A stretch of DNA of 64,000 nt. Source: [Mycobacterium] crassicus. Lineage in GTDB: Bacteria > Actinomycetota > Actinomycetes > Mycobacteriales > Mycobacteriaceae. Shown here one piece after another: positions 46,632 to 64,000 of this stretch. A program made the position numbers and the translations under genes. The notes under the pieces are model-generated. The model had not been told where the DNA came from and made no database searches. It worked only from the letters and a program-made list of their open reading frames with translations. Numbering within the stretch: position 1 is the first letter of the stretch; each line of letters starts with the position of its first letter. The stretch spans positions 3,133,693 through 3,197,692 of the forward strand of contig NZ_CP084029.1 of NCBI RefSeq assembly GCF_020181615.1, written 5' to 3'.

Positions 46632-47587
46632 TACAGCGCTCTCAGATACCGTAGCCGGTGACCGATAACCCGTTGGGATACTTCGGCATCCGGTGCCATC
46701 AGCTCGAAAGCGTGTGGGCAGCCGGGGTACACATGCGCCTCGACGGGCACACCCGCGGCGATCAGCCGCCCGGCGTAGGTGACGTCCTCCTCGACGAAGA
46801 TGTCCAGCCCGCCGACGTCGAGATACGTCGGCGGTGAGCCGGCCAGCTCGGCGACCCGGGCCGGCGCCGCATAGCCGCTGGCCGGATGCCCGCCCAGCAG
46901 GGCCCCCCAACCGGTGGCGTTGTCGTCGTAGCTCCAGACCTGCAGCGGCGGCGGATCCGCAGGAGCATGGGTGGTGCGGTCGTCGAGCATCGGGTAGATC
47001 AGCAGCTGCGCGGCGATCGCCGGTCCACCGCGGTCGCGGGCCACCAGGCCCAGCCCGGCGGCCAGTCCCCCGCCGGCGCTGTCGCCCATCACCGCCAGCC
47101 GCGCCGTGTCCACACCCAACGACGTGGCGTGCTCGGCCAGCCAGCACAGCGCCGCATAGCAGTCCTCCAGCGGCGTGGGATAGGGGAATTCCGGCGCGAC
47201 ACGGTAACCCACCACCAGCATCGGCACCCCGCACGCGGCGACATAGCCGCGCACCGCCTGGTCATACAGCGGACCCATGTGTCCCCAGTCCAGGATCATG
47301 CCGCCGCCGTGCAGATACAACACCGCACTGCCGGGCTGATCCGCGCCGGCTTGCCGGTACCAGCGCAACGCGATCGTGCCGCCGTCGTCAAGGGTCAGCG
47401 AGAACTCCTGTGTATCAACGCCGGTGACCGGTGATCGCGCGGCCAGCACCTGGTTGAACATCCGGCCGGTGTTGGCGCGTCGGGTGGCGACGTCACCGAC
47501 CGGCGGGGGCGGCGCGTCGTCAGCACCGCTGCCGTCGCGCATCGCCAGCAGCGCCGCCAGCACCTCGGGATCGGGTGGGCCCGCCAT
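46631..47587 (-). CDS. HSL-family esterase/lipase
   Basis: 318 aa from ATG 47587. Hormone-sensitive-lipase type alpha/beta hydrolase: oxyanion loop YLHGGGMI (HGGG at 93-96), nucleophile GDSAGG (Ser170), acid Asp262 in DVGGLDIF and His292 in GCPHAFELM. No signal peptide. It shares one base with the upstream aldehyde dehydrogenase stop (TGATG) and one with the TfoX start. Likely hydrolyses the ester product of the Baeyer-Villiger enzyme. Confidence 0.9.
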   Translation of the reverse strand: MAGPPDPEVLAALLAMRDGSGADDAPPPPVGDVATRRANTGRMFNQVLAARSPVTGVDTQEFSLTLDDGGTIALRWYRQAGADQPGSAVLYLHGGGMILDWGHMGPLYDQAVRGYVAACGVPMLVVGYRVAPEFPYPTPLEDCYAALCWLAEHATSLGVDTARLAVMGDSAGGGLAAGLGLVARDRGGPAIAAQLLIYPMLDDRTTHAPADPPPLQVWSYDDNATGWGALLGGHPASGYAAPARVAELAGSPPTYLDVGGLDIFVEEDVTYAGRLIAAGVPVEAHVYPGCPHAFELMAPDAEVSQRVIGHRLRYLRAL

Positions 47588-49062: not shown

Positions 49063-49154
49063 GCACCCCAGGCTAACGGCGCGGCCATGACGTGATCGAT
49101 CGATTGACCAATTCGTGCGCTACGGTGACGCCCAGGAGGTGACCGGCCGATCTC

Positions 49155-50144
49155 ATGTCGCTACTGAGCGCCCTGCGCCTGAACATGACCAACGCCCCCG
49201 GCACCACCGCCGGGAGCGCCGAGCGGTATCGGGCCGCACTGGAGATGGCCTCCTACGCGGACGCGCACGGAATCACCGCAATCGGTTGCGAGGAGCATCA
49301 TCTCGCCGCCACCGGTTGGCTGCCCGCCCCGCTGTTGATGGCGGCTGCCGTCGCGGGTGCCACCCAGAGCATTCGCATCAGCATCAATGCGCTGCTGGTT
49401 CCGCTCTACGACCCGGTGCGCCTCGCCGAGGACATCGCGGTCCTCGATCAGCTCTCGGCCGGTCGGGTCAGCTTCGTCGCCGGAATCGGCTACCGCCCGC
49501 AGGAATACCACGCGGCCGGCAAGGATTTCCGGCGCCGGGGCGAGCTGATGGACGAGTCGCTGACCGTGCTTATGAAGGCCTGGGGCGACGAGCCTTTCGA
49601 GTACCACGGCAGGCGCATCGATGTGACGCCCAAACCACACACCAAGCCGCATCCGGTGTTCTTCATCGGCGGCATGAGCGCCGCGGCGGCCCGCCGGGCG
49701 GCCCGGTTCGGGTTGCCGTTCTCCCCGCCCATGCCGATGCCGGAGATCGAAGCGGTGTATCGGGCCGAACTGGACCGGCACGGCAAGCAGGGTTTCGTGT
49801 TCTGCCCCGAAAACGGCAACACCGTCACCCATCTGACCACCGATCCGGAGGCGGCCTGGGCCCGGTGCGGTCAGTACTTCCTCAACGAGGCAGCCGAGTA
49901 CAGCGCGTGGGCGGTTCCGGATGTGCCTCGTCCCAACGAGAGTCCGGTCGGCACCGTCGCAGAGCTGCGCCGCGCCGACAAGGTGGAGGTGCTCACCCCC
50001 GAGGAACTGATCGCGCAGTGCCGCGCCGGCCGGACCGGGGTGACCGTCCATCCGTTGATGGGCGGTCTGCCGCTCGACGCGGGCTGGGAAAGCCTGCGAC
50101 TGCTGGGCGAAAAGGTGTTACCCGCGCTTTGCGCGCAACCCTGA
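49155..50144 (+). CDS. Luciferase-like (LLM) flavin- or F420-dependent oxidoreductase
   Basis: 329 aa. LLM-class TIM barrel: EMASYADAHGITAIGCEEHH, ISINALLVPLYDPVRLAEDIAV, LSAGRVSFVAGIGYRPQEY and FFIGGMSAAAARRAARFG. Distinguishing FMN from F420 is not possible from sequence alone; many mycobacterial members use F420. Preceded by AGGAGG. It lies between the BVMO operon (divergent) and the CYP136-like gene. Confidence 0.85.
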   Translation: MSLLSALRLNMTNAPGTTAGSAERYRAALEMASYADAHGITAIGCEEHHLAATGWLPAPLLMAAAVAGATQSIRISINALLVPLYDPVRLAEDIAVLDQLSAGRVSFVAGIGYRPQEYHAAGKDFRRRGELMDESLTVLMKAWGDEPFEYHGRRIDVTPKPHTKPHPVFFIGGMSAAAARRAARFGLPFSPPMPMPEIEAVYRAELDRHGKQGFVFCPENGNTVTHLTTDPEAAWARCGQYFLNEAAEYSAWAVPDVPRPNESPVGTVAELRRADKVEVLTPEELIAQCRAGRTGVTVHPLMGGLPLDAGWESLRLLGEKVLPALCAQP

Positions 50145-50202
50145 CCGGTGGATGACCCGACACGGCAACTGCGACATGGGCTCGGTTGAGGAACGCCAAT
50201 CC

Positions 50203-50216
50203 TTGACAGGTGTCAA
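50203..50216. promoter_or_regulatory. Palindromic operator before the CYP136-like gene
   Basis: TTGACA-GG-TGTCAA, a 6-2-6 perfect inverted repeat. TTGACA also serves as a -35 candidate, with GAGGAT 17 nt downstream. Position and symmetry suggest a TetR-type operator. No regulator is adjacent here, although CYP136 in M. tuberculosis neighbours a TetR gene. Confidence 0.5.
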
Positions 50217-50288
50217 TTCCGACCCGAGGATAACCGTGAGGTCCGTCACAATTTTTGCGCACGGCCCGCTGCCCGCGAAGGAGCCTCG

Positions 50289-51764
50289 ATGACCACCATC
50301 AGCACCCCGCATTACCTACTCGATCAGGCCAAACGTCGGCTGACTCCGACGGTGAACAACATCCCCGGCATGGGGATGATCGAGAAACGCCTGATGGGCA
50401 TGAACTGGAAGACGAAGATCCTCGCCGAGCCACCACCGGGCAGTGGTCTCAAGCCGGTGCTCGGCGATTCCGGTCTGCCGATCATCGGCCACTCCATCGA
50501 GATGTTCCGTGAAGGACCCGAGTACGCGCTGCATCTGTACCGCAAATACGGGCCGGTGTTCTTCGCCGATTCGTCGATCTTGCCGTCGGTCGTCGCCCTG
50601 GGGCCCGACGCCACCCAAACGATCTTCGCCAACAAGGCGAAGGACTATTCGACCAAAGGCTGGATCAAGGCCATCGGCCCGTTCTTCCCGAGGGGCCTGA
50701 TGCTGTTGGACTTCGATGAGCACCTGGCGCACAAGCGAATCATGCAGGGGGCGTTCACCCGACCGCGGATAGCCAGCTACGTCGAGGACATGGATCGCGT
50801 GGCCACCTCGATCGTGGAAAGTTGGCCGACCGATGACGCCCGGTTCCTGTTCTACCCGGCGGTCAAGGAACTCACCCTCGATGTGGCGTCGGTGGTGTTC
50901 ATGGGGCAGGATCTGCGCGCCGACCGCAAGCTGGTCGCGGCGGTGAACCACGCGTTCGAGCAGACCATCCGCGCCGGCACCGCGACCATCCGGACCTCGG
51001 TGCCACCGTTCAAGTGGTGGCGCGGCCTGCAGGGCCGCAAGGTGCTCGAGGAGTACTTCTACGCCCGCGTCGCCGAACGTCGCAAGGTCGAGGGCACCGA
51101 CATGCTGACCGTGCTGTGCCACACCGCCGATGACGACGGCAACACCTTCACCGACGAGGACATCGTCAACCACATGATCTTCCTGATGATGGCCGCGCAC
51201 GACACCACGACATCGACCCTGACCACGATGGTCTATCAGCTGGCCGCCCACCCGCAGTGGCAGGAACGGGCCCGCGACGAGTCGGACCGGCTGGGTGACG
51301 GACCGCTGGACATCGAGTCGCTGGAGAAGCTGGAAACCCTGGACCTGGTGATGGACGAGTCGCTGCGACTGGTGACCCCACTGCCCCTGAACGTGCGGGA
51401 GACGGTACGCGACACCGACCTGCTGGGCCACTACCTGCCGGCCGGCACCCTTGTCACGACCTGGCCGTCAATGAACCATCTGCTGCCCGAGCTGTACACC
51501 AACCCGAACGAGTTCGACCCGGAGCGCTTTGTCGAACCGCGCGCCGAGCACAAAAGGCATCGCTATGCCTGGGCGCCGTTCGGCGGTGGCGCGCACAAGT
51601 GCATCGGGATGGTGTACGGGCGGCTGGAGGTCAAGACCGTCCTGCACCGCCTGCTGCGGAGCTATCGATTGGAGCTGGCGCACCCGGGTTACCGGCCGCG
51701 CTGGGACCGCACCGGCATGCCCTTCCCGATGGACGGTATGCCGATCGTGTTGCGGCGGCTGTAG
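50289..51764 (+). CDS. Cytochrome P450, CYP136 family-like
   Basis: 491 aa, close in length and sequence style to M. tuberculosis CYP136 (Rv3059): shared N-terminal YLLDQAKRR, LAEPPPGSGLKPVLGD and FPRGLMLLDFDEH patterns. Heme-binding FGGGAHKCIG with Cys438, ExxR at Glu357-Arg360 and I-helix AAHDTT (302-307). Soluble, with no membrane anchor. The native substrate of CYP136 is not known. Location differs from M. tuberculosis, where it is at Rv3059, so the gene has moved or been acquired separately. Preceded by AAGGAG. Confidence 0.88.
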   Translation: MTTISTPHYLLDQAKRRLTPTVNNIPGMGMIEKRLMGMNWKTKILAEPPPGSGLKPVLGDSGLPIIGHSIEMFREGPEYALHLYRKYGPVFFADSSILPSVVALGPDATQTIFANKAKDYSTKGWIKAIGPFFPRGLMLLDFDEHLAHKRIMQGAFTRPRIASYVEDMDRVATSIVESWPTDDARFLFYPAVKELTLDVASVVFMGQDLRADRKLVAAVNHAFEQTIRAGTATIRTSVPPFKWWRGLQGRKVLEEYFYARVAERRKVEGTDMLTVLCHTADDDGNTFTDEDIVNHMIFLMMAAHDTTTSTLTTMVYQLAAHPQWQERARDESDRLGDGPLDIESLEKLETLDLVMDESLRLVTPLPLNVRETVRDTDLLGHYLPAGTLVTTWPSMNHLLPELYTNPNEFDPERFVEPRAEHKRHRYAWAPFGGGAHKCIGMVYGRLEVKTVLHRLLRSYRLELAHPGYRPRWDRTGMPFPMDGMPIVLRRL

Positions 51765-51790
51765 TTTCTGCGGCCGGAGCGCCGCCACCA

Positions 51791-52531
51791 CTAGTTCTGC
51801 GAGGCCTTCTTACGTTCGATGTCGGCCAGTGAGGCGGCCAGCTCGGCGCGCTCGGCCGCCGAGGTCTCCCAGGCCAGCTTGCGGTTCTTGACCACCTTGG
51901 CCGGCGCTCCCACCGCGATCGAGTAGTCCGGGATGACACCCTTGACCACCGCGTGGGCGCCCAGCACACAGCCGCGACCGACGCTGGTGTCGCGCAGGAT
52001 GGTGACCTTCGCCGCGATCCAGGTGTCCGGCCCGATCCGCACCGGGCTCTTGATGATGCCCTGGTCCTTGATCGGCATGTCGATGTTGTCCATCTTGTGG
52101 TCGAAGTCGCAGACGTAGCACCAGTCCGCCATCAGCACCGAGTCCCCCAGCTCGATGTCGAGGTAGGTGTTGATGACGTTGTCGCGGCCCAGCACCACTT
52201 TGTCGCCGAATCGCAGCGATCCCTCGTGCGCCCGGATGGTGTTCTTGTCTCCGATGTGCACCCAGCGGCCGATCTCCATCTGGGACAGCTCCGGAGTGGC
52301 CTGGATCTCCACGCCTTTGCCCAGAAAGACCATGCCGCGGGTGATGATGTGCGGGTTGGCCAGTTTGAACTTCAGCAGCCGCCAGTACCGCACCAGGTAC
52401 CACGGGGTGTAGGCCCGATTTGCCAGCACCCAGCGCAGCGAGGCCACCGTGAGGAACTTGGCCTGGCGTGGATCCCGCAGCCGCGAACCCCGCCAGCGTT
52501 TGTGGATCGGCGCACCCCACATGGTCGTCAT
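51791..52531 (-). CDS. Left-handed beta-helix (hexapeptide) acyltransferase (Rv3034c homologue)
   Basis: 246 aa. N-terminal helical part, then LbetaH hexapeptide repeats (IGRWVHIGDKNTIRA, IGPDTWIAAKVTILRDTSVGRGCVLGAHAVV positions 158-188) and the acetyltransferase close IAVGAPAKVVKNRKL. The mature enzymes act as trimers on sugars with acyl-CoA. The position next to the methylglucose-lipopolysaccharide genes makes an acyl- or succinyltransferase for that polymer a reasonable guess. Corresponds to Rv3034c. Confidence 0.85.
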   Translation of the reverse strand: MTTMWGAPIHKRWRGSRLRDPRQAKFLTVASLRWVLANRAYTPWYLVRYWRLLKFKLANPHIITRGMVFLGKGVEIQATPELSQMEIGRWVHIGDKNTIRAHEGSLRFGDKVVLGRDNVINTYLDIELGDSVLMADWCYVCDFDHKMDNIDMPIKDQGIIKSPVRIGPDTWIAAKVTILRDTSVGRGCVLGAHAVVKGVIPDYSIAVGAPAKVVKNRKLAWETSAAERAELAASLADIERKKASQN

Positions 52532-52621
52532 GGCCGGAAAGCCTACGCGAGCGGCTTTGTGCCACGCGCTACCCTCACCTGGACTCGTTCACTGCCCGGC
52601 GACGGATTGGGGATTGCCACT

Positions 52622-53920
52622 GTGTTGCGGCGACGTGGTGTCCTGGCCGGGATCGCGGTGGCAGCGGTGGCAGGACTGCTGGGTGGCTGCTCCAACACCG
52701 ATTCGTGGGTGGATGCCGCCCCCGCACCGGGCTGGCCCGCCCAGTACGCCGACGCCGCCAACAGCAGCCACACCGCCACCACCGGGGCCTCCGACCTGCA
52801 GCTGGACTGGACTCGTTCGGTCAAGGGCGAGCTGGGCGCCGGCCCCGCCCTGGGCATTCACGGTTGGATGATGCTCAACGCCCAGACCGAGGCCGGTTGC
52901 TCGCTTATGCAGTGGGAGAACGCCGACCGCGGCCGGCAGCGCTGGTGCACCCGGCTGCATCAGGGCGGTGGGTTCTTCGGCGCGCTGATCGACGGCTTCG
53001 ACAACGTCTACGTCGGCCAGCCGGGCGCCATGCTGTCGTTTCCGCCCACCCAGTGGATTCGCTGGCGCGCTCCGGTGATCGGCATGCCGTCGACGCCGCG
53101 GATCCTCGGCGACGGCCTGCTGCTGGTGGTGACGCACCTGGGCCAGGTGCTGGTCTTCGACACCCACGAGGGCACCGTGGCCGGCACCCCGCTGGATCTG
53201 GTGGACGGCGTCGACCCGACCGACTTCCGGCGAGGACTGGCCGACTGCGCTGGCGCGCGCCCGGACTGCCCGGTCGCCGCCGCGCCAGCCTTTTCGCCGG
53301 TGAGCAACACCGTGGTGCTCAGCCTGTGGCAGCCCGGCGCCAAGGAGCCCGGACTGGTCGGGCTCAAGTACCACCCGGGCGGCACCCCGCTGCTCACCCA
53401 GGAATGGACCAGCGACGCCGTCGATGCCGGAGCGCTGGCCAGCCCGGTGCTGTCCTCCGACGGCTCCACCGTCTACGTCAACGGGCGCGACCAACGGTTG
53501 TGGGCGATCAACGCCGGCGACGGCAAGGCGAAATGGTCGGTGCCGCTGAAGTTCCTGGCGCAGACGCCGCCGGCGGTGACACCGGACGGGCTGATCGTCT
53601 CCGGCGGCGGCCCGGACACCGACCTGGTCGCCTTCGCCGACCGTGGTGAGTACGCCGAACAGGTGTGGCGCCGTGATGACGTCGCTCCGCTGTCCTCGTC
53701 AAGCCTGGCCGGGAAGGTCGGCTACACCGTGGTCGCCGGCACCAGTCTGGGGCCGGCCGGCCTGTCGCTGTTGGTGTTCGACCCGGCCGACGGGCACACC
53801 ATCAACAGCTACCCGCTGCCCGAGGCGCGCGGCTTCCCGGTCGGGGTAGCGGTCGGCCACGACCGGCGGGTGGTGGCCACCACCAGCGCCGGCCAGGTAT
53901 TCAGCTTCGCCCCGGCCTAG
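52622..53920 (+). CDS. Lipoprotein with PQQ/WD-type beta-propeller (Rv3035 homologue)
   Basis: 432 aa from GTG 52622 (VLRRRGVLAGIAVAAVAG). Signal peptide with lipobox LLGGC (Cys at about 23), so lipidated and exported. The remainder is a beta-propeller resembling PQQ-repeat proteins (GSTVYVNGRDQRLWAINAGDG, KAKWSVPLKF). Homologue of Rv3035, function unknown. Convergent with the TB22.2-like gene, stops overlapping by 4 nt. A TTG one codon downstream is an alternative start. Confidence 0.85.
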   Translation: MLRRRGVLAGIAVAAVAGLLGGCSNTDSWVDAAPAPGWPAQYADAANSSHTATTGASDLQLDWTRSVKGELGAGPALGIHGWMMLNAQTEAGCSLMQWENADRGRQRWCTRLHQGGGFFGALIDGFDNVYVGQPGAMLSFPPTQWIRWRAPVIGMPSTPRILGDGLLLVVTHLGQVLVFDTHEGTVAGTPLDLVDGVDPTDFRRGLADCAGARPDCPVAAAPAFSPVSNTVVLSLWQPGAKEPGLVGLKYHPGGTPLLTQEWTSDAVDAGALASPVLSSDGSTVYVNGRDQRLWAINAGDGKAKWSVPLKFLAQTPPAVTPDGLIVSGGGPDTDLVAFADRGEYAEQVWRRDDVAPLSSSSLAGKVGYTVVAGTSLGPAGLSLLVFDPADGHTINSYPLPEARGFPVGVAVGHDRRVVATTSAGQVFSFAPA

Positions 53921-54615
53921 ACGGCCAGCGGCGGGATCGCCGTGCGCGGCACCTTCACCGTGGTAGCGCCGGCGCTCAGCGGCAGCAGTTCGCCGGGCGC
54001 GAAGTAGAAGATCACTTCCTCGTTGGTGACGGCGAAGTTCTGGTAGTGCGACGGGTCCATCCCCGAGCCCGACGAAATCAGGATCGCCGGCACGCCGGTC
54101 TGGCGCTCGAGGTCGCGCTGCACGATCGGAAAGATGGCGTCCAGCGGCTTGGTGTTGGGCGCGAACAGCGTCTCGAAAGTGATCGGCTTGCGCGCCGCCA
54201 GGTCGTAGTTGAACGCCTTGAACCAGGTGGACGGCTGCGGGCCGCCGAGGTCCTGGAAGATTTTGAGCACGACGCTCTGGGTTCCCTTGGGCGCCTGGCC
54301 GGAACGATGCTGCTCGGAGGTCGCGTCCATCTCATAAGGCATGTCTCGCGAGCCGGGCGACTTGGCCACGGTCAGGAACCCGTCGCGGTTCTGGACCAGG
54401 TAGTCGGTGAGCGTCTGTTGGTCGGGGTAGTCGACCGGGAACCTCATGTCCAGGGTGTAGGTGCCCGTCGAAGAGTGCACGTGACACAGCCCGGAGTCGA
54501 GCGACCCGCCCAGCTCGGCGCAGGGCGAGATCGCCTGCGCCGTGGGGAGGCCCGCCATACCCAGCCAGCCGCCCGCTGCCCCGCCCACCATGAGGGCGGC
54601 CACCAGAATGCGCAT
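53917..54615 (-). CDS. TB22.2-like secreted protein (Rv3036c homologue)
   Basis: 232 aa with a clear signal peptide (LVAALMVGGAAGGWLGMAGLPTAQA, about residues 4-28). The MPT64/DUF3298-type fold has YTLDMRFPVDYPDQQTLTDYL, DLAARKPITFETLF and the C-terminal FAVTNEEVIFYFAPGELLP. M. tuberculosis Rv3036c (TB22.2) is a culture-filtrate protein with reported esterase activity; catalytic residues are not obvious here. Two cysteines in the mature part could form a disulfide. Confidence 0.88.
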   Translation of the reverse strand: MRILVAALMVGGAAGGWLGMAGLPTAQAISPCAELGGSLDSGLCHVHSSTGTYTLDMRFPVDYPDQQTLTDYLVQNRDGFLTVAKSPGSRDMPYEMDATSEQHRSGQAPKGTQSVVLKIFQDLGGPQPSTWFKAFNYDLAARKPITFETLFAPNTKPLDAIFPIVQRDLERQTGVPAILISSGSGMDPSHYQNFAVTNEEVIFYFAPGELLPLSAGATTVKVPRTAIPPLAV

Positions 54616-54762
54616 TGTCGGTTTGTCTCGCTTTGTCTCACCCTGCCGCAGAAAGCAGGAACTGGCCCGAAGCAGATAGCCTACCGGGCCGCTCAGCGCG
54701 ACGGACGGCAGACGAAAGCAAAGGGCTAATGACGACGGACGTCGGTGTCAGGGCGGGTCCAC

Positions 54763-55656
54763 TTACGAACTGAGCCGCTGTGCCGTCGCGTGGATCTCAC
54801 GGATGTAGCGGTCACGCTCAGGTGCGCTCGCCTGATCTTGCAGCGGCCCCAACTGCAGCTCGTAAACCGGTTCGCCCTTGTCGAACACCGGCGCGGCCAG
54901 ATAACTCACCGACAAGGCTTCCGAAGTATCGAGTTCTTCTGCGGTATAAGGGTTTCCGCCCACCCCAGTCAACATCTGTAAGACCCGCTGCCGAAGTGCA
55001 GCCCGCCGGGGGTGTTCGGTGAGCATCCCGGCAACCTCGGCCAGCACATCAAGCGCCGCTGGGTCGGCCTGCCCCATGCCGAATACCACGACACCGCCGT
55101 TCTTCGCCTGGTCCAGCAGGTCACTGAGGAATTGACGCTCGGGTACTGGCGCGGTGCCCAACCACCTCCGCCGCGTATGCGCGTCGCGGTGCGCGATCAC
55201 GGCGGCACCTGCGGGTGCGACAAGCGGTAGGCGGACCCCGACGCCGACAGCGGCCGGAATCTGGCCCTGCCCTCCGACCACGGTCAAGAAACTGATCTCG
55301 GTGGCGCCCACGAGGGCGAGCGCCACTCCACAACCCACCCGCTCCGACAGCTGTTCAATGACGTGGGTGTGCTCCGGGGACACCGGCCACAGCGCGCGAA
55401 CCGCGTCCGCGACGCCCATCAGCCCGGGCCCCAGCAGGTACCGGCGGTCGGGCTGGCGAACAACCCATCCCGCCCGCTCCAGCGTCAGCAGAATCGACGT
55501 CACCGTCGCACGGTTCAACTCCAACCGCGACGCGATCGATGCGACCGAACTCGGTTGTTGCTGGTCGGCAAGTAATCCCACGATGGCGACGACTCGATCG
55601 GTCGGTGGCGAACCCACTCGCTCGACTTCGTCGTGCCCCTCATCGAGCTGAGTCAT
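54763..55656 (-). CDS. IclR-family regulator
   Basis: 297 aa from ATG 55656 (MTQLDEGHDE); a GTG one codon upstream is possible. N-terminal winged helix (SSVASIASRLELNRATVTSILL, 47-68; wing VVRQPDRRYLLG) and C-terminal effector domain. Divergent from the exported protein - P450 - ferredoxin operon, which it probably controls. A palindrome at 55826-55839 is a candidate site. Effector unknown. Confidence 0.85.
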   Translation of the reverse strand: MTQLDEGHDEVERVGSPPTDRVVAIVGLLADQQQPSSVASIASRLELNRATVTSILLTLERAGWVVRQPDRRYLLGPGLMGVADAVRALWPVSPEHTHVIEQLSERVGCGVALALVGATEISFLTVVGGQGQIPAAVGVGVRLPLVAPAGAAVIAHRDAHTRRRWLGTAPVPERQFLSDLLDQAKNGGVVVFGMGQADPAALDVLAEVAGMLTEHPRRAALRQRVLQMLTGVGGNPYTAEELDTSEALSVSYLAAPVFDKGEPVYELQLGPLQDQASAPERDRYIREIHATAQRLSS

Positions 55657-55769
55657 CACACTCCTTATGCCGAGAACACCGGACCGAATCCTACGAGGAC
55701 AGGCCGCCTGCCGTGACCGGCACGCGGCGAACCGCAGCTCCGTTTCTGAGATTCGGCCCAACCAAATGC

Positions 55770-55798
55770 TTGCCTGGGCGATCACTCGGGCGTACAGT
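55770..55798 (+). promoter_or_regulatory. Sigma-A-like promoter for the exported protein - P450 operon
   Basis: TTGCCT (55770-55775) and TACAGT (55793-55798) with 17-nt spacing. It lies about 65 nt before the start codon at 55862, upstream of the IclR-type palindrome. Confidence 0.5.
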
Positions 55799-55825
55799 CC
55801 CGTATCAATATTCTGTCACACGACC

Positions 55826-55839
55826 GACAAATAGTTGTC
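55826..55839. promoter_or_regulatory. Candidate IclR operator
   Basis: GACAA-ATAG-TTGTC, 5-bp perfect arms between the predicted -10 and the start codon of the 702-aa exported protein. Position suits repression by the divergent IclR regulator. Confidence 0.45.
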
Positions 55840-55861
55840 ATCAAATTGGGAGAGGAGCCCC

Positions 55862-57970
55862 ATGAGCACGATGATGAGCGCTGGCCAGCCGGTTGGGTCC
55901 GCAGGCACAAGCAGGAAGCCGCTGCCCCGCACTGCGCAGCACCTGCGCACCAGGCGGATCGCGCCACCCCGCGTTAGCCGAGCGGCTCAGCTGGCGACGA
56001 CGGCGGTGACTGGGGCTTTGCTACTGGGGGTCACCGCACCTCATGCCGCCGCGGAGGCGGCCCTGCCGGTGCGGTTGACGTCGGCGGACAGTTCGTTGCA
56101 GCCGGTGATCGATCAGATCCTGGCCAACATGCAACAGACGCAGCAAGGATTCGAAGCGTTGCCGTTCGCCACCCCGGACAGCAACGCCATGCTGCTGGCC
56201 AGTCTGCAGGCCACCAACTTCCAACTCCTAATGTCCTCGGGCCTCTCGCAGCTCACCAATGGCCAGGTCTTCGTCCAGGTCCCCGAGGTGACCGCCGGGG
56301 ATTCGGCTGCCTATCGCCCGTACTTCCAGTTCTATACGCCCGACATCTACTACCGCACCGCCCAGGGATTCGACCCGAATGCGACCTACGAACTCACCGG
56401 CACCGTCGGCAAGGGCACCGGCGGCATGGCGCTCATGCCGATCACCGTCGGGGGATCCTCGGCTGAAGGCGGCGGCGCCCTGGAGCTCGGAAGCAGTTTG
56501 ACGGTCAATCCCGACGGGACGTTCACCGTCTTCATCGGCCCCGAAAAGCCGGACGGCGCAGTCAACTTCATCGACAGCAGCCACATCAACTCGCTGTTGA
56601 TCCGAGACATGCTGAGCCAGTGGGCATCGGGCGGCAGCAACTTTCACATCGACTGCGTGAGCGACTGCGCGCCAATCCCGGCCGGTATCACCGACACCGG
56701 GCTGTCCAGCGACATCATCAGTCAGCTCTTGAACAGGGTCGCTCCCGGCGTGATCCCGTTCAATCAGTTGAATATGCAACTCGCCGGTGCCGCCGGAATC
56801 CTGCAACCGCCCAATACGATGAGCGACCTGGCATCGCAAAGCGGTTACGGCGTCGCCCTGCCCAGCGCCGCCGTCTCGTCGGGCCATTTCGACCTGCAGC
56901 CCGGCGAGGCGCTGATCGTGAAGATTCCCCAGCTCGATTCCGCTGGAATGAACGGAATCGAGCTGATGAACGTTTATGCCACGAACCTGCCCGCCACGTT
57001 GGCGCAGACCAGCCTCAACGGCACCCAATCGTTCCTTTCCAACGATGGCTACACCTACTACGTCATCAGCGCCACCAACCCGGGAGTGGCGAACTGGCTG
57101 GACAGCGGCGGAGTCACCAGCGGCGAGATATATATGCGCTACCAGAACATTCCGCTCGCCGACCGACCTCCGGTTCCCCTGCCGGTGGAGACCCAGGTGG
57201 TGCCGGTCGACGACGTGGCGAAGTATCTGCCCACCGATACGCCGATCATCAGCCCCGCTCAATACGCCGCCGATATGAATGAGCGGGTGCTGTCCTACAA
57301 CTACGCGTTGGACACCGCCCGCATTGCCGGACAACCCGGTTGGGTCACGCAGCAGTTGTGGCTGCACGACATCGAGAACACCATGGGCACTGACAATTTC
57401 GCGGCGGTGTTCGGCGAGCAGCCGGCCACGCCGATGTGGTTGCGGTTCACTCCGGCCCTGGCTCCCGATTGGCTCGCCTTGAGCAAAGCATTCCTATCCG
57501 ATCCGTCGACCGCGATGACCGCGATCCACGACAACTGGGACCTGGCGATGAAGGACGTTTCGTTGCCTGTCCAGTTGGCTCAAGCCTTGTTGGAGAAGAA
57601 CTTCGAACACACCGCGGGCGCCGTAGAAAGTGCACTGTCGTCGGGCGACCTGGCCCAGGCGCTGACGGCGTTGTCCGCCGGCGGCCAGCAGTTCGGCACG
57701 ATCCTCAGCGACGCGCTGTTCGACCCCAACACCAGCATCATCTCGGGCCTGCTCAACGCCCGCGACGACCTGGCCACCTCGGTGTTCACCGCGACCGGCG
57801 GGTTCGGCGACGTGGCAAACCCGCTGGCAGCACTGGAATGGGCGTTCCTACCGGAGCTTTCCCGTTCGGGCTGGGACTTCAGCTCGCTGCTGGATCCGTC
57901 CAGCTGGACAGGCCTGGATCTGGCCACCGTGCTGAACCCGACCGACTATCTGGGGATGCTGCTCGGATGA
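55862..57970 (+). CDS. 702-aa exported protein of unknown function heading a P450/ferredoxin operon
   Basis: ATG 55862 follows GGAGAGGAG. A charged N-terminus of 40 residues leads into a hydrophobic segment (residues 43-60, GALLLGVTAPHAAAEA), so the protein is exported or anchored. Residues about 75-290 contain a beta-rich region with the pattern YELTGTVGKGTGG ... NPDGTFTVFIGPEKPDG, which resembles DUF1214 domains; low certainty. Two cysteines (DCVSDC) follow. The C-terminal 130 residues are Leu/Asp-rich helices ending NPTDYLGMLLG. It overlaps the P450 gene by ATGA, an unusual coupling of an exported protein to a cytoplasmic enzyme. Confidence 0.75.
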   Translation: MSTMMSAGQPVGSAGTSRKPLPRTAQHLRTRRIAPPRVSRAAQLATTAVTGALLLGVTAPHAAAEAALPVRLTSADSSLQPVIDQILANMQQTQQGFEALPFATPDSNAMLLASLQATNFQLLMSSGLSQLTNGQVFVQVPEVTAGDSAAYRPYFQFYTPDIYYRTAQGFDPNATYELTGTVGKGTGGMALMPITVGGSSAEGGGALELGSSLTVNPDGTFTVFIGPEKPDGAVNFIDSSHINSLLIRDMLSQWASGGSNFHIDCVSDCAPIPAGITDTGLSSDIISQLLNRVAPGVIPFNQLNMQLAGAAGILQPPNTMSDLASQSGYGVALPSAAVSSGHFDLQPGEALIVKIPQLDSAGMNGIELMNVYATNLPATLAQTSLNGTQSFLSNDGYTYYVISATNPGVANWLDSGGVTSGEIYMRYQNIPLADRPPVPLPVETQVVPVDDVAKYLPTDTPIISPAQYAADMNERVLSYNYALDTARIAGQPGWVTQQLWLHDIENTMGTDNFAAVFGEQPATPMWLRFTPALAPDWLALSKAFLSDPSTAMTAIHDNWDLAMKDVSLPVQLAQALLEKNFEHTAGAVESALSSGDLAQALTALSAGGQQFGTILSDALFDPNTSIISGLLNARDDLATSVFTATGGFGDVANPLAALEWAFLPELSRSGWDFSSLLDPSSWTGLDLATVLNPTDYLGMLLG

Positions 57971-59184
57971 CCGCGACGACACCTGACCAGGCGACTTTCA
58001 CACCACGCGGCGGCGAGTCCTGGCGCGATCCCTGGCCGATGTACGCCGCGCTGCGCGAATTTGACCCGGTCCACCAGGTGGTGCCCGACCATGCGCCACA
58101 CAACGATTACTGGGTGCTGTCACGGTATGCCGACATCAGCGCCGCCGCCCGGGACTGGGAGACATTCTCCTCCGCGCAGGGCCTGACCATCGACTACGGG
58201 GAGATGGAGCGCTTGGGTCTTGCCGAGGAGAACGCTCCGCTGGTGATGCTCGACCCGCCGGCGCACAGCGAGTTCCGCCGGGTGGTCCACAAGGGCTTCA
58301 CCCCGAGGCAGATCGTGACGATCGAGCCGGCGGTGCGTGAATTCGCGGCGGAGCGCATCGAGCGGCTACGCGCGCAAGGCGGCGGTGACATCGTCGCCGA
58401 ACTCTTCAAGCCGCTGGCCAACATGGTCGTCGCCCACTATCTGGGGGTGCCCGACACCGACCGAAGCCGGTTCAACGACTGGGCCGACAACATCGTCGAA
58501 GCCAACGCGACCGGGGAACAGGCCGGCGCCGTTGATGCGATTGTCGAACTCTTCGGCTACTTCACCGAGCTGGTCGAACGACGCAAGCAGGATCCGGGCG
58601 ACGACACCGTCTCGCACCTGATCGCCCTCGGCTTCGGCAACGACGCCGACAGCCTCGGGAGGGTCTTGGGATGGGCCTTCACCATGATTGCCGGCGGCAA
58701 CGACACGATCATCGGAATGCTCGGCGGCAGCGCCCAGTTGCTCACCCAACACCGCGATCAGCGGTCACAGTTGATCGCCGACCCAAGCAGCATCGCCGCG
58801 GCGGTTGAGGAGTTCCTCCGCCTGACCTCGCCGGTACAGGGGCTGGCCCGCCTGACCACTCGCGACGTGGAGATCGACGGTGTGACCATCCCGGCGGGGC
58901 GTAAGACATTGCTGTTGTACGCATCGGGGAACCGCGACCCGCGTCAGTACGGACCGGACGCCGAACAGCTGGACGTGCGACGCAAGCCGCAGGGAATCCT
59001 GAGCTTCAGTCAGGGTAACCACCACTGCATCGGCAATACCGCGGCGCGGATGCAGTCGCGGGTGGTGTTGGAGGAGCTGCTGGCCCGCTGCCCGAACTTC
59101 CATGTCGATTGCGATGCCGTCGAATACGCCGAGGGAATGTACGTTCGGCGTCCCGACCGCCTGACATTCGCTCCGGAAGCCTGA
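57967..59184 (+). CDS. Cytochrome P450
   Basis: 405 aa, soluble class I bacterial P450. Heme ligand Cys354 in FSQGNHHCIGN, ExxR at Glu282-Arg285 (EFLR), I-helix AGGNDT (242-247) with the oxygen-activating acid/Thr pair replaced by Asn-Asp-Thr. Substrate unknown. It starts inside the stop of the upstream exported-protein gene and is followed 16 nt later by a ferredoxin that is probably its electron donor. Not clearly assignable to a CYP family by inspection. Confidence 0.92.
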   Translation: MTATTPDQATFTPRGGESWRDPWPMYAALREFDPVHQVVPDHAPHNDYWVLSRYADISAAARDWETFSSAQGLTIDYGEMERLGLAEENAPLVMLDPPAHSEFRRVVHKGFTPRQIVTIEPAVREFAAERIERLRAQGGGDIVAELFKPLANMVVAHYLGVPDTDRSRFNDWADNIVEANATGEQAGAVDAIVELFGYFTELVERRKQDPGDDTVSHLIALGFGNDADSLGRVLGWAFTMIAGGNDTIIGMLGGSAQLLTQHRDQRSQLIADPSSIAAAVEEFLRLTSPVQGLARLTTRDVEIDGVTIPAGRKTLLLYASGNRDPRQYGPDAEQLDVRRKPQGILSFSQGNHHCIGNTAARMQSRVVLEELLARCPNFHVDCDAVEYAEGMYVRRPDRLTFAPEA

Positions 59185-59200
59185 ACAGTAGGGAGACACG

Positions 59201-59398
59201 ATGAGGGTCGTCGCCGACCGGGAGAAGTGCATGGGAAACGGCCTTTGCGAGGCGGTCCATCCGGCCGTCTTCGAAGTCGCAGATGACGGTGTCGTCGTCG
59301 TCCACCATGAGAACGTTCACGCGGAGGACCGCAAGTTGCTCGAACAGGCGGTCGCGGCCTGCCCCGCTTTCGCATTGCGGCTCGTCGACGACGACTGA
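59201..59398 (+). CDS. Ferredoxin, 3Fe-4S type
   Basis: 65 aa. Three cluster cysteines: Cys10 and Cys16 (KCMGNGLCE) and Cys54 (AACPAF). The second cysteine of a 4Fe box is replaced by Asn, so a [3Fe-4S] centre is expected, as in other P450 partner ferredoxins of mycobacteria. Preceded by GTAGGGAGA. Downstream of and in the same direction as the P450. A ferredoxin reductase is not encoded nearby. Confidence 0.92.
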   Translation: MRVVADREKCMGNGLCEAVHPAVFEVADDGVVVVHHENVHAEDRKLLEQAVAACPAFALRLVDDD

Positions 59399-59405
59399 GG
59401 AGCCA

Positions 59406-60515
59406 TCAGCGAGACGGACGGCAGATGTAGGCCACCGCACGCGCCGCGGCCCCGGCCCCGATTCGGGTGATCACGACCGACAGCGCCACCTGCCCGCGCA
59501 GCCGCAGCCGGCGACGCAGTGCGTCGGGGTCGGCCTGCACGTCACGCACGCCGCGGACCAGGATTTCCAGCGTGCCGCAGTCAAGTGCAGCCAGGGCCTG
59601 CCGCAGGCGTTTCTCGCTGTAGGCCAGGGTCTCGAGCACCTCGAATCCGCGTACGCCGTCCGGTAATTCGTCACCGGAGAGATAGGCGATGTCGGGATCG
59701 AGCTGCCAGAGCCCGTGCCGGGCGCCGTACTGGCGGACCAGGCCGGCCCGCACCACCGCACCGTCCGGATCGATGATCCAGCGCCCCGCCGGCCGCACGT
59801 CGCAGTCGTCGGGCTCGGCGTCGGTGACCTGCTCACCGCGGTCGAGGATCACCGCGCGGCGGCGCACCCCAGGTCCGGCCAGGCCGGGTGACCACAGGCA
59901 GGATTCCCGCACCGAGGCGCGCCACGAGGTGACTTCGATCTCGCCGGCAAAACCGAGCAGCCCGATCTTTTCGAAATCGATTCCGGGAGCAGCCTTTACG
60001 ACGATGTCGCGCCCCGTGTAGACCTCGAACAGACGGTCCAGGGCGGGCTGGTAGTCGGCCGGATCGAAGCGCCGCCGCCCACCGCTTCGCCGTGCCGGGT
60101 CGGCCAAGACGACGGTGTCTCGGGTGACCGGAACCAGCGCATCGGCACGACACAGCGCCACCGCACCGGCCAGGTTGTGCTGTGCCATCGCCAGCCGGAC
60201 CGGGTCGATGTCGCTGCCGATCAGCCCCGCCGCCGTGCCCCGCAGCGCCGCCAGCTCGGTGCCGATCGAGCAGGTCACGTCATGCACGACGCGCCCGGCC
60301 AGGCGCGCCGCGCGATGAACCGCCACCGCCGCCGCGCTGGCCTGTTGCAGTGCCTCATCGGTGAACAGCCAGTCGCCGGCGTCCGGCAACTTGGCGGCCG
60401 CGCGGCGACGCAGCAGGGTGGTCTCGACCAGCGCCGGAGTGCGGTCGCCGAACCGGGCACGCACGCCTGCGATGTCGGTGACCTTGGTGGCCTCGGTCAA
60501 CGCCAGGCCCGCCAC
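59406..60515 (-). CDS. THUMP-like class I methyltransferase (Rv3037c homologue)
   Basis: 369 aa from GTG 60515, the first usual start in frame. SAM-binding HDVTCSIGTELAALRGTA (167-184 region), catalytic-type LADPARR and GRRRFDPADYQPAL, and the C-terminal THUMP-like part. Homologue of Rv3037c. The conserved family N-terminus (LTLDQVTYLRST) lies in frame upstream at 60539-60575 but has no ATG, GTG or TTG, so the true start may be a rare codon near 60575-60578, right at the stop of the upstream methyltransferase. RNA methylation is a likely role. Confidence 0.8.
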   Translation of the reverse strand: MAGLALTEATKVTDIAGVRARFGDRTPALVETTLLRRRAAAKLPDAGDWLFTDEALQQASAAAVAVHRAARLAGRVVHDVTCSIGTELAALRGTAAGLIGSDIDPVRLAMAQHNLAGAVALCRADALVPVTRDTVVLADPARRSGGRRRFDPADYQPALDRLFEVYTGRDIVVKAAPGIDFEKIGLLGFAGEIEVTSWRASVRESCLWSPGLAGPGVRRRAVILDRGEQVTDAEPDDCDVRPAGRWIIDPDGAVVRAGLVRQYGARHGLWQLDPDIAYLSGDELPDGVRGFEVLETLAYSEKRLRQALAALDCGTLEILVRGVRDVQADPDALRRRLRLRGQVALSVVITRIGAGAAARAVAYICRPSR

Positions 60516-60571
60516 CTCCCGTAGCGCGTCCTGGCCGACCGTCGACCGCAGGTAGGTGACCTGGTCGAGGG

Positions 60572-61546
60572 TTAGGACGGTTTGACCCCGGTGATCATCA
60601 GGTTGTAGAACCAGCCCTTGGGCACCACCCGGCGCCAGATGTTGGCGTCTACCCAGCTCAGGGCCGTCCAGCTGCCGAAGGCGAACCGCGCCCAGCCCCA
60701 GCCGAGCTTGCCCGGCGGGACCGTCGACTCGAAGGTCCGAACCGGCCAGCCCAGCATGGCGGCGGTGAACTCTTCGCTGGCCGTGCTCACCTCGACCGCG
60801 CCGGCGTTGGCAGCCATCCGCTCCAGGTCGGCGGGCTCGAAGGTGTGCAGGTCCACGATCCACTCGAGCGCGGCGGCGCGGGAGTTCTCATCGAGCTCTT
60901 CCTGCGGCCGGCGCCAGGAGCCCATGCCGGGCAGCTTCATCGCGGCGACCGTGGTCTTCCAGGTCAGGTCGGCCAGCCGGCGAGCGTAGAAGTTGCCGAC
61001 CGTGGTGGGCTCGCCGGCGAAGATGAAGCGGCCGCCGGGCTTGAGCACCCGGACCACTTCGCGCAGCGACAGCTCGACGTCGGGAATGTGGTGCAGCACC
61101 GCGTGGCCGACCACCAGGTCGAAGGTGTTGTCCTCGTACGGGATGCCCTCGGCGTCGGCGACCCGACCGTCGACGTCCAGGCCGAGGGCCTGACCGTTGC
61201 GGGTGGCTACCTTGACCATGCCCGGCGACAGGTCGGTGACCGAGCCGCGCTGCGCCACCCCGGACTGCATCAGGTTGAGCAGGAAGAAACCGGTGCCACA
61301 GCCCAGTTCCAGCGCCCGGTCATAGAGAGGCGCGGGCCCGCTGCGTTCGGCGGCCGGCACGATCGCATCGAAACGGCCCCGGGCGTACTCGATACAGCGC
61401 TCGTCGTAGGAGATCGACCACTTCTCGTCGTACTGCTCGGCCTCCCAGTCGTGGTAGAGCACCTGAGCGAGCTTGCTGTCGTGCCGGGCGGCCTCCACCT
61501 GCTCGGCGGTGGCGTGCGGGTTCGGCGTCGGGTCCGTGCTCGTCAT
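60572..61546 (-). CDS. SAM-dependent methyltransferase (Rv3038c homologue)
   Basis: 324 aa. Class I fold: SAM motif ALELGCGTGFFLLNL (about 77-91), VTDLSPGM, and DLVVGHAVLHHIPDVELSL; the post-catalytic VLKPGGRFIFAGEPTTVG is typical. Corresponds to Rv3038c, beside Rv3037c. Function unproven. It is immediately upstream of the THUMP-like gene (stop and possible start overlapping). Start codon at 61546 (ATG, MTSTDPTPNP). Confidence 0.88.
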   Translation of the reverse strand: MTSTDPTPNPHATAEQVEAARHDSKLAQVLYHDWEAEQYDEKWSISYDERCIEYARGRFDAIVPAAERSGPAPLYDRALELGCGTGFFLLNLMQSGVAQRGSVTDLSPGMVKVATRNGQALGLDVDGRVADAEGIPYEDNTFDLVVGHAVLHHIPDVELSLREVVRVLKPGGRFIFAGEPTTVGNFYARRLADLTWKTTVAAMKLPGMGSWRRPQEELDENSRAAALEWIVDLHTFEPADLERMAANAGAVEVSTASEEFTAAMLGWPVRTFESTVPPGKLGWGWARFAFGSWTALSWVDANIWRRVVPKGWFYNLMITGVKPS

Positions 61547-61605
61547 GGTGAGTCAGCCTAACGGTCATCGTCGGCACGACGAAGTCGGGCGCTGGGGTCA
61601 TACCG

Positions 61606-62604
61606 TCACGCCGCCGTGAGGGTGTCCATCACTGCCTGCGGGAACGCTGCGACCGCGGCGACAACCTGGTCGAAGCCGGTCTGCATCGCCGCTGCGATGT
61701 CGGCCTGGTCGCCGCCCTGGATGGCCTCCCAGATGTGCCAGAGCGCGATCTGCGGCACGGTGACCAGGTCGCGGTAGTCGACGAACAATCCGGTGATCAG
61801 ATCCGGCGTCGCCGGCACGGCTATACCGTCCCAGCTGACCAGGGTCCAGCCGTCGGTCGGGTTGCCCTCCAGGATGGCCTGGCCCGCGTTGGGGGGCGGA
61901 CCTCCGTTCTCGAGGACCGTCTGAAGAATCGGCCAGACATCCGGGTTCCTGACGTTCATCAGCGTCCAGATCGCGATGTCCCCGCCGCTGGACGACGCCA
62001 CCGCGGTCGTGGCACCGTCACCCGCAATGGTGTTGTCGTACATCGTCTGGACGGCTTGGTTGACCTGATCCTCGAACACCACCCCGTTGTAATTGGTGCC
62101 GGGTTCCGAGGCGAAGAGGTTGCCGAGGATCCATGAGGCCATCGGCAAGAAAAAAGCGGCCTCGCTGATCAGGTTGCGGGGTTGTTCTTCGAAGAGGCCG
62201 GCGGGGATCTCGTTGAGATCCGCGAGCACCTGGACACTGGGCATCCCGGGCAGCTGGGCCAGGGCGGCCATCGTCTCCTGTGTCCGGACCAGTTCCGAGG
62301 CGTAGATGCCGGCGATACCGCCCGGGAACTCCTGCTGAATGGCCTGGGCGACCTGGGCCGCCTGTTGTTCGCCAAGGTCAGTCAGGTGAGCGCCGGGCGG
62401 GAGCGTGCCGAGAATGTTGTTGAGGTCATCAGTCGACTGCCCGTGCCGCACAAAGTCCAGCGTGATGTCCTCAGTATCCGCGGTGAGCCGTATGCCGAAG
62501 GCCGACGCTGCCGCTGCCGCTGCCGGTATCACGGTGGTCACGCCCCCGAGACCGGCCAGCGTGATGCCGGTGGTTATCCAGGTAAGGCTGATGACTCTCC
62601 GCAT
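61606..62604 (-). CDS. Exported histidine-phosphatase-fold protein, copy 1
   Basis: 332 aa from ATG 62604, preceded by GGGGAG at 6-nt spacing. Signal-like N-terminus (ITTGITLAGLGGVTTVIPAAAAA, about residues 10-32), then an LTAD block. The histidine-phosphatase core has RHG (53-55, FVRHGQST) and the second Arg in SELVRTQET, but the position of the second catalytic His (usually xHGG) reads SSSGGDIAIW, Ser206. The C-terminal 100 residues are helical, including WEAIQGGDQADIAAAMQTGF. About 60% identical in style to the copy at 62735; tandem duplication. Confidence 0.82.
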   Translation of the reverse strand: MRRVISLTWITTGITLAGLGGVTTVIPAAAAAASAFGIRLTADTEDITLDFVRHGQSTDDLNNILGTLPPGAHLTDLGEQQAAQVAQAIQQEFPGGIAGIYASELVRTQETMAALAQLPGMPSVQVLADLNEIPAGLFEEQPRNLISEAAFFLPMASWILGNLFASEPGTNYNGVVFEDQVNQAVQTMYDNTIAGDGATTAVASSSGGDIAIWTLMNVRNPDVWPILQTVLENGGPPPNAGQAILEGNPTDGWTLVSWDGIAVPATPDLITGLFVDYRDLVTVPQIALWHIWEAIQGGDQADIAAAMQTGFDQVVAAVAAFPQAVMDTLTAA

Positions 62605-62629
62605 GTTCATCTCCCCAGACAAGGTGTGA

Positions 62630-62646
62630 CGTGACCGGCTTTCACA
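62630..62646. promoter_or_regulatory. CRP-like element upstream of copy 1
   Basis: CGTGA-CCGGCTT-TCACA. The GTGA and TCACA half-sites match but the spacer is 7, one more than the usual 6. It shares GTGACCGG with the perfect site before copy 2, so the two may have a common origin. Confidence 0.3.
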
Positions 62647-62734
62647 TCATCGGCATGGCGGCAATACCCGGCTTTCAGCGAGGCCAAACGTGCCTGCCAG
62701 AAAAACGTCCGAAAGACGCAGCCGGTGCTGCGAC

Positions 62735-63796
62735 TCAGATCCCGATGGACGCCAGCGCATCGCCGATCGCATCACCCGCACCGCTGCCGCCGGCGTCAGC
62801 CATGGCCCCGGTGAGGGTGTCGATCACCGCCTGCGGGAACGCCGCGAACGCGTTGAGCACGTCGTTGAAGCCGGTCTGCAGCGCCGCGGTGACGTCAGCG
62901 GAATTGCCGCCCTGGATGGCCTCCCAGATGTTCCAGACGGCCACCTGCGGCGCGACGATCAGGTCGCGGAAGTCGACAAACAAACCGGTGAAGACATCCG
63001 GGGTCTGCGGAACGGGTGTCCCGTCCCAGCTGACCATTGTCCAACCGTCCGTGGGGCTGCCCTGCAGTACGGCTTGGCCCGCATTGGGGGGCGGGCCCAG
63101 GGTCTCGAGTAACTGCTGCGCAAGCAGCGCAATCGGAGGGTTCTTGACATTCATCAGCGCCCAGATGGCGATCACTCCGCCGCTGGTATACGCCACGTCG
63201 GCCATCGGGCCGTCACCTGCAATGGTGTTGGCGTAGATGGTGTCGATGGCGCCGCCGACCTGCTCATCGAACTGCACCCCGTTGATGCCGCCGAGTTCAG
63301 GGACCAGGACGAAGCCCAGCACCCACGCCGCCATCGGCGCGAAATAGCCGATCTCGGTCAACAGGTCGCGTGGTTGGCCTTCGAAGATGCCGGCGCCCAC
63401 CTCGTTAAGTCCCGCCAGCACCTGCACATCCATGTCCAGCGCCTGCGCCAGCGGGGCGGCGGTCTCCTGGGTGCGGATGAGCTCCGAAGCGTAGATCCCG
63501 GCGATGCCGTTCGGGAACTCGCCCTGGATGGCCTGGGCGACAGCGTTCGCCTGTTGCACTCCCGCCTCGGTGAGTGGTGCACCGGGCGGGAGCGTGCCGA
63601 GGATGTTGTTGAGGTCGTCGGTCGATTGCCCATGTCGCACCAAGTCCAGCGTTATCTGCCCGGCTTCCGCGGTCAGCTGGATGCCGAAGGCCGGCGCTGC
63701 GTTGAGCGCAGGCGCCACCGGTACGACGTTGACGATCCCCAGACCGGCCAGCGTGATACCGGCGGTGACCCCTATGCGGTTGACGACTCGCTGCAT
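62735..63796 (-). CDS. Exported histidine-phosphatase-fold protein, copy 2
   Basis: 353 aa from ATG 63796, preceded by GGGGAGAG. N-terminal signal-like region (TAGITLAGLGIVNVVPVAPA) followed by PAFGIQLTAE. RHG at 54-56 (LVRHGQST), second Arg in SELIRTQET, expected second His again replaced (AYTSGGVIAIW, Ser205). The C-terminal tail after 330 is Gly/Asp/Ala-rich. Adjacent paralogue of the gene at 61606, same strand, 130 nt upstream. Function as an active phosphatase is doubtful without the second His. Corresponding proteins occur in other non-tuberculous mycobacteria. Confidence 0.82.
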   Translation of the reverse strand: MQRVVNRIGVTAGITLAGLGIVNVVPVAPALNAAPAFGIQLTAEAGQITLDLVRHGQSTDDLNNILGTLPPGAPLTEAGVQQANAVAQAIQGEFPNGIAGIYASELIRTQETAAPLAQALDMDVQVLAGLNEVGAGIFEGQPRDLLTEIGYFAPMAAWVLGFVLVPELGGINGVQFDEQVGGAIDTIYANTIAGDGPMADVAYTSGGVIAIWALMNVKNPPIALLAQQLLETLGPPPNAGQAVLQGSPTDGWTMVSWDGTPVPQTPDVFTGLFVDFRDLIVAPQVAVWNIWEAIQGGNSADVTAALQTGFNDVLNAFAAFPQAVIDTLTGAMADAGGSGAGDAIGDALASIGI

Positions 63797-63819
63797 GTCT
63801 CTCCCCAGACAGGACGCGA

Positions 63820-63835
63820 TGTGACCGGTATCACA
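63820..63835. promoter_or_regulatory. Perfect CRP-type site upstream of copy 2
   Basis: TGTGA-CCGGTA-TCACA, an exact match to TGTGA-N6-TCACA. It lies 24-39 nt upstream of the start codon at 63796, close to where transcription should begin, so it may repress as well as activate. Binding by the mycobacterial Crp is inferred. Confidence 0.55.
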
Positions 63836-63949
63836 TCCTATCGATAAGACGGAGAGCTGAGCAATACCCGGAGTTCAGCGAATCCCGCGCTCGCGTTCAG
63901 GTGCCGGCGTGTCGGTCGACGGCGAGAGGGCTGCAAATACCGCGGCCGG

Positions 63950-64000
<51 letters not shown>

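Follow-up and report, generated by a model that had tools for sequence, protein, structure and literature searches.

A candidate IclR-controlled operon joining a predicted exported DUF1214-type protein to a CYP130-type P450 and ferredoxin in [Mycobacterium] crassicus

Analysis of a 64,000-nucleotide stretch of the [Mycobacterium] crassicus genome (hereafter, the window) identified a block in which the gene for an IclR-type regulator diverges from three genes, encoding a 702-aa protein with signal-peptide features, a soluble cytochrome P450 and a ferredoxin. With a probability of about one half, the block may be read as an IclR-controlled operon through which a hydrophobic substrate, perhaps a steroid-like or aromatic one, is acquired and oxidised. 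The gene order, its recurrence in related genomes, the fold and signal-peptide features of the large protein and a conserved operator were all established computationally. Regulated P450-ferredoxin operons are already known. A preliminary description of this DNA knew of no system that unites an IclR regulator, an exported protein and a P450, and none was found among the open-licence literature matches listed; nor did these describe an exported partner of DUF1214 type or the operator that the loci share.

The four-gene block and its insertion site

The window belongs to a single-contig genome of 4.87 Mb (G000), and the closest named proteins to its own are those of Mycolicibacter virginiensis and [Mycobacterium] nativiensis. 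In the ORF list, the divergent block spans 54763-59398, with the IclR gene on the minus strand and the exported-protein, P450 and ferredoxin genes all on the plus strand (Table 1). All four ORFs lie where the preliminary description had located them, except that homology places the start of the IclR gene near 55656 rather than at 55785. The P450 gene overlaps the exported-protein gene by 4 bp (ATGA), and the ferredoxin gene begins 16 nt past the P450 gene. HTH_IclR, p450 and Fer4_13 profiles score above their Pfam cut-offs in the window proteins. Point estimates of dN/dS between the window and the corresponding genes of a related genome, G150, rise from 0.15 (P450) through 0.21 (IclR) and 0.23 (exported protein) to 0.39 in the ferredoxin, which is short; genes in use would show such values.

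Table 1. Positions of the block's features and flanking genes in the window
Feature	Position	Strand	Basis
IclR-type regulator	54763..55665	-	HTH_IclR; start by homology ~55656
Promoter-like block TTGCCT-N17-TACAGT	55770..55798	+	8-locus alignment and sequence; suggestive only
Operator palindrome CGACAAATAGTTGTCA (candidate)	55825..55840	.	Alignment, genome scan
Exported protein (predicted), 702 aa	55862..57970	+	Signal features, DUF1254/DUF1214-type fold
Soluble P450, CYP130 type, 405 aa	57967..59184	+	p450 profile, CYP130 structure matches
Single-cluster ferredoxin, 65 aa, CMGNGLC...CP	59201..59398	+	Fer4_13, motif
Left flank, Rv3036c-type esterase homologue, outside system	53917..54615	-	NCBIfam EstaseRv3036c
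Right flank, Thump_like (Rv3037c-type), outside system	59406..60620	-	Thump_like; 5' end approximate, frame open to 60863

The block has a G+C content of 64.6%, compared with 68.7% and 70.6% in its flanks. The flanking genes, of which the Thump_like gene is presumably of the Rv3037c type, are adjacent and about 80 nt apart, without the block, in all eight hand-picked relatives. Because the site is empty in these relatives, the block is considered an insertion in this lineage, as had been proposed from the Rv3036c and Rv3037c homologues on either side. The two edges of the block (54700-54712 and 59413-59425) share a 13-mer, GACGGACGGCAGA, which belongs to the terminal part of the Rv3037c-type gene; an exact copy occurs once in three of the eight empty-site loci and is absent from the other five. 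This repeat may be a trace of the mode of insertion. No integrase was seen within the block and no tRNA in window positions 45000-64000; the exported protein matched no phage record in the origin check, and its 17 plasmid matches cover 19-45% of the protein at 25-33% identity. Phage or plasmid origin was set aside on the missing phage match, the partial plasmid matches and the lack of a nearby tRNA.

At a distance of 3 kb from the block is a second P450 gene (50289-51764), whose 491-aa product has 28% identity to CYP130. Further to the right (61606-63796, where the window stops) is a tandem run of at least two genes for histidine-phosphatase-type proteins whose starts are signal-like, and the loci L050 and L051 have three such genes each.

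Regulator and operator

The naming of the regulator rests on its HTH domain because its C-terminal half is divergent: HTH_IclR scores 40.8 bits against a cut-off of 22, and the IclR_C effector domain 19.6 bits against a cut-off of 24. Alignment of eight divergent regions revealed one conserved palindrome, TGACAAATA-N-TTGTCA, whose end in the window lies 21 nt ahead of the start of the exported protein. The IclR-type palindrome noted earlier at this place is real and conserved. With at most one mismatch, TGACAAN4TTGTCA has a single site in the 4.87-Mb genome, versus four for the reversed pattern. An operator-like site within one mismatch is present in all eight motif-defining loci, and a site within two mismatches in nine of 12 held-out IclR loci (L132-L135, L159-L162 and L199), where it precedes IclR, exported-protein, PPE or PE starts; L168, L200 and L201, the other held-out loci, show no operator within two mismatches. 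Fourteen hits differ from the motif by no more than one base, and 12 of them fall within 13,006 of 368,056 bases, a count that is circular for the eight defining loci. Among the hits beyond the counted zones, some precede PE genes (L133 at 13028, L134 at 5686, L135 at 13716) and one precedes IclR (L160 at 5943). The single genomic site, the held-out loci and the linkage to IclR genes back a dedicated regulator and operator.

A wider regulon in the window genome was rejected: with up to three mismatches to the refined pattern there were 22 hits, compared with 25 for the control, so relaxed operator matches represent background. These sequence comparisons support a narrow, local role for the window IclR. 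The promoter reported in the preliminary description fared less well; TTGCCT-N17-TACAGT can be read there, matching the consensus at 8 of 12 bases, and the eight aligned loci partly conserve the surrounding stretch, but a scan with a threshold of nine consensus bases found no promoter.

Relatives of the operon and its proteins

Recurrence was assessed in a sample of 396 genomes of the genus, with thresholds of E ≤1e-170 for the P450 and E ≤1e-75 for the IclR subfamily. Genes of relatives were called by an ORF picker using G+C at codon positions, by which some genes were missed or misplaced, and the P450 genes of the window, L161 and L162 were added by hand. Eight of the 396 genomes contain a P450 within the threshold: G000, G069 and G150, which have the window operon, together with G204, G206, G223, G380 and G332. 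The exported-protein gene of G069 is split over two frames in the assembly; there is a full-length relative, P0002 (87%).

A second type of full operon, ordered IclR, exported protein, P450, ferredoxin and AMP-binding CoA ligase, is found in G204, G206, G223 and G380. Its proteins are 56-58% (IclR), 27-29% over about 395 residues (exported protein), 66-67% (P450) and 35-37% (ferredoxin) identical to those of the window. The exported proteins are 812-849 aa in length, and the two that were scanned contain both Ig/cadherin-like and DUF1214 parts; the best PDB matches of the ligase (L160 copy) are 4-coumarate-CoA ligases. None of these four ligase-bearing operons showed steroid genes. The exported-protein, P450 and ferredoxin genes are joined by 4-bp overlaps, and IclR is co-directional with the operon, unlike the divergent IclR of the window. 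The ATGA overlap, from which translational coupling had earlier been argued, is missing from both sister genomes of the window type (G069 and G150), where the genes are instead separated by some 15-40 nt, according to which start codon is taken; coupling is therefore not essential. A functional meaning of the overlap was set aside on this account, although the ligase-bearing operons do have 4-bp overlaps.

The IclR subfamily comprises 19 genes in 17 of the 396 genomes. The exported protein and the P450 had been expected to be conserved together, and 13 of the 19 loci do pair a DUF1214-type exported protein with a P450, including the clade at 27-29% identity. In nine of these the P450 is close (G000, G069, G150, G223, G380, and twice each in G204 and G206), where the second IclR of G204 and of G206 adjoins a different kind of P450 (28-29%) and has another exported protein no more than two genes away. 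The other four (G022, G101, G309, G321) have the P450 further downstream: the IclR/exported-protein pair lies upstream of an FAD-oxidase gene, presumably of the Rv1257c type, at the canonical CYP130 locus, and CYP130 follows, co-directional with them, in G101, G309 and G321, whereas in G022 it lies beyond an MMPL gene at a distance of about 6 kb. The remaining loci are a remnant in G332, a truncated P450 only in G117, and PPE/PE loci in G007, G023, G064 and G272; a PPE/PE pair thus replaces the DUF1214 protein in four of the five loci without one, the G332 remnant excluded. In L133 (G023), L134 (G064), L135 (G007) and L199 (G272), operator-like sites lie ahead of the PPE and PE genes beside IclR.

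In G332, a P450-ferredoxin pair (70% and 56%) is found 2.8 kb ahead of a gene for a KshA_C-domain oxygenase, and HsaA- and HsaC-like genes come after it. Also on this contig (C36; L158, L168, L170) are Mce genes (Mce4_CUP1-domain), KstD- and HsaD-like genes and, about 21 kb from the P450 pair, a window-type IclR with remnants of the exported protein. The ring-degradation proteins (Hsa and KstD models) score below their NCBIfam equivalog cut-offs.

A P450 heme signature has the form FxxGxHxCxG, which in the window P450 (PF00067, E 1.6e-19) was read as FSQGNHHCIG, and over 40% identity defines a P450 family. CYP130 entries lead the PDB list (E 6e-155), and on its 62% identity to the other, canonical-type CYP130 of the same genome the window P450 can be assigned to the CYP130 family. 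It is not orthologous to canonical mycobacterial CYP130, since it falls in a separate clade and the canonical-type gene lies elsewhere in the genome. In the P450 tree, the window clade (21 rows) has support of 81/87, drawn as weak, and the canonical CYP130 clade (17 rows) 99/99; on these separate clades, a recent duplication of the canonical gene was rejected. This tree included a row that was mistranslated, L039_cyp, and OUT_window491 as a distant outgroup; a second tree left out both as well as the long-branched P0140. In the second, grouping the P450s of the two full-operon types in a single clade was weakly rejected (p-AU 0.0206), and recurrence of the operon may therefore reflect re-assembly. 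The ferredoxin motif, CMGNGLC...CP, is the Asn variant of the CXX?XXC(X)nCP type, and with a non-Cys residue at the variable position and a P450 gene adjacent, the protein is predicted to be a P450 ferredoxin.

The 702-aa protein begins with a basic n-region, hydrophobic residues 44-59 and an Ala-rich cleavage region, and appears from these features to be Sec-exported. Its signal region (about 1-65) is followed by a DUF1254/DUF1214-type fold (75-452), with a CxxxC pair at residues 265-269 (C265/C269), and by a helical C-terminal region from about 465. By a heuristic devised for this analysis, all 22 of the 22 aligned rows, the window protein counted, share this CxxxC pair and have a hydrophobic segment near the N terminus. 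The protein shares the fold of the DUF1254/DUF1214 family and scores 15.8 bits against the PF06742 gathering score of 25, which its relatives in L160 and L161 exceed (25.1 and 25.6 bits). No title dealing with DUF1254/DUF1214 function, VPA0735 included, was seen among the open-licence matches listed.

The exported-protein family is multicopy, with six matches in the window genome at five places listed. FMO-like genes are neighbours of paralogues in this genome, and a PhyH-type gene adjoins that of another relative. Of 17 plasmid neighbourhoods, five were viewed; in four of these a gene for a Rieske oxygenase, an extradiol dioxygenase or a P450 is at most two genes away, and an oxygenase is absent from the fifth. 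At 17 of 29 closer loci the gene diverges from that of a DUF1254/DUF1214 protein, often with a phosphoesterase; with the limited reference set used, no adjoining oxygenase was recognised there. These loci and L052 encode a second kind of exported DUF1214-type protein, often upstream of the phosphoesterase. IclR-type and PhyH-type genes recur together in L167/L079 (G292) and L168 (G332), next to an exported protein of DUF1214 type or what remains of one. A 2788-aa ORF with an adenylation-like match comes after a related exported protein in L049 (G148, contig C116), and in G387 such a protein lies two small genes away from an MmpL-like gene.

Proposed function and comparison with known systems

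In the proposed mechanism, IclR would bind the palindrome just downstream of the exported-protein promoter and repress the exported-protein gene and, probably, its own, until a ligand derived from the substrate binds IclR and lifts repression. The DUF1214-type protein would then be made and sent across the membrane, where it may capture, hand over or first modify a hydrophobic compound at the envelope, and the P450 with its dedicated ferredoxin would oxidise the compound inside the cell. It is inferred here that transport is inward and that the exported protein and the P450 share one compound, which is probably oily. Uptake is favoured over export because the same type of IclR, judged by operator position, controls PPE/PE genes, and PPE51 has been described as mediating uptake across the mycomembrane (PMC8826857). 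Catabolism is favoured because of the neighbours of relatives, namely the ring-degradation region of G332, FMO-like and PhyH-type genes and plasmid oxygenases. These neighbours, which differ between lineages, suggest a ring-bearing substrate; to name it steroid-like, terpenoid or aromatic is a guess from the same neighbours.

Alternatively, the P450 might finish an endogenous lipid or secondary metabolite, which the exported protein would carry or display at the envelope. The association of CXX?XXC ferredoxins with secondary-metabolism P450s (PMC6237146) would suit such tailoring, as would the adenylation-like and MmpL-like neighbours of relatives in G148 and G387. However, no synthase gene was recognised beside the seven full operons in the part of their ORFs scanned for families, and IclR control and the PPE/PE and ring-degradation neighbours fit acquisition better; tailoring and export is considered unlikely. 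Detoxification or defence, in which the operon would sense and oxidise a toxic hydrophobic compound that the exported protein sequesters outside the cell, is a remoter prospect still. It is in keeping with the FMO-like neighbours of paralogues and with the location of the orphan CYP130A1 gene in M. tuberculosis, where an efflux pump gene adjoins it (PMC6469627), but the operon genes include no efflux gene, and the CoA ligase and ring-degradation neighbours point to carbon use.

A further explanation is that the exported protein and the P450 share a regulator and a locus without acting on one compound. Most copies of the multicopy exported-protein family have no recognised P450 neighbour, the ATGA overlap is not conserved and the P450s of the two full-operon types are not sisters, as separate functions would predict. 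That the pairing recurs at 27-29% exported-protein identity, and in two genomes with a P450 of another kind, makes this explanation rather improbable.

Acquisition and oxidation of a hydrophobic substrate, if correct, would provide the first role for exported DUF1214-type proteins. The defined operator and exported partner make inducer screening possible for a CYP130-type enzyme. A more tentative and less probable proposal is that these loci form a new class of mycobacterial acquisition system, in which one dedicated IclR switch governs both an exported DUF1214-type envelope receptor or carrier for a hydrophobic substrate, replaced in other species by PPE/PE under the same operator, and the cytoplasmic oxygenase that consumes this substrate. 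If so, PPE transporters would have functional counterparts in the DUF1214 proteins, and a first handle on the substrate of CYP130-type enzymes would be gained.

Several components have known counterparts. The best NCBIfam model for the window IclR (E 8e-14) describes PcaR/PcaU/PobR-type regulators of aromatic catabolism, but its score of 51.6 bits against the TIGR02431 cut-off of 284.75 means that it is not a member of that subfamily. The P450 is of the same family, by sequence (E 6e-155), as CYP130A1 (Rv1256c) of M. tuberculosis, described as an orphan enzyme that lacks a physiological substrate (PMC6469627); unlike CYP130A1, it represents a separate lineage with its own ferredoxin and IclR. 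The ferredoxin shares its motif class, the Asn variant and a gene beside a P450 with P450-associated ferredoxins of M. marinum, from which this class is known (PMC6237146), and the available part of that account mentions neither an exported protein nor IclR. Structures of DUF1254/DUF1214 proteins, 6ans from B. cenocepacia and VPA0735 and VPA0106 from V. parahaemolyticus, have entry titles that give no function, and the window protein differs from them in two ways, by its signal-peptide features and by a tail of some 240 residues that is helical. Finally, PPE/PE envelope proteins such as PPE51 have no Pfam domain in common with the window DUF1214 protein, but they are of an exported type like it and are linked in four genomes to the same IclR type and operator, and the system suggests an envelope route for compound handling in mycobacteria besides PPE proteins.
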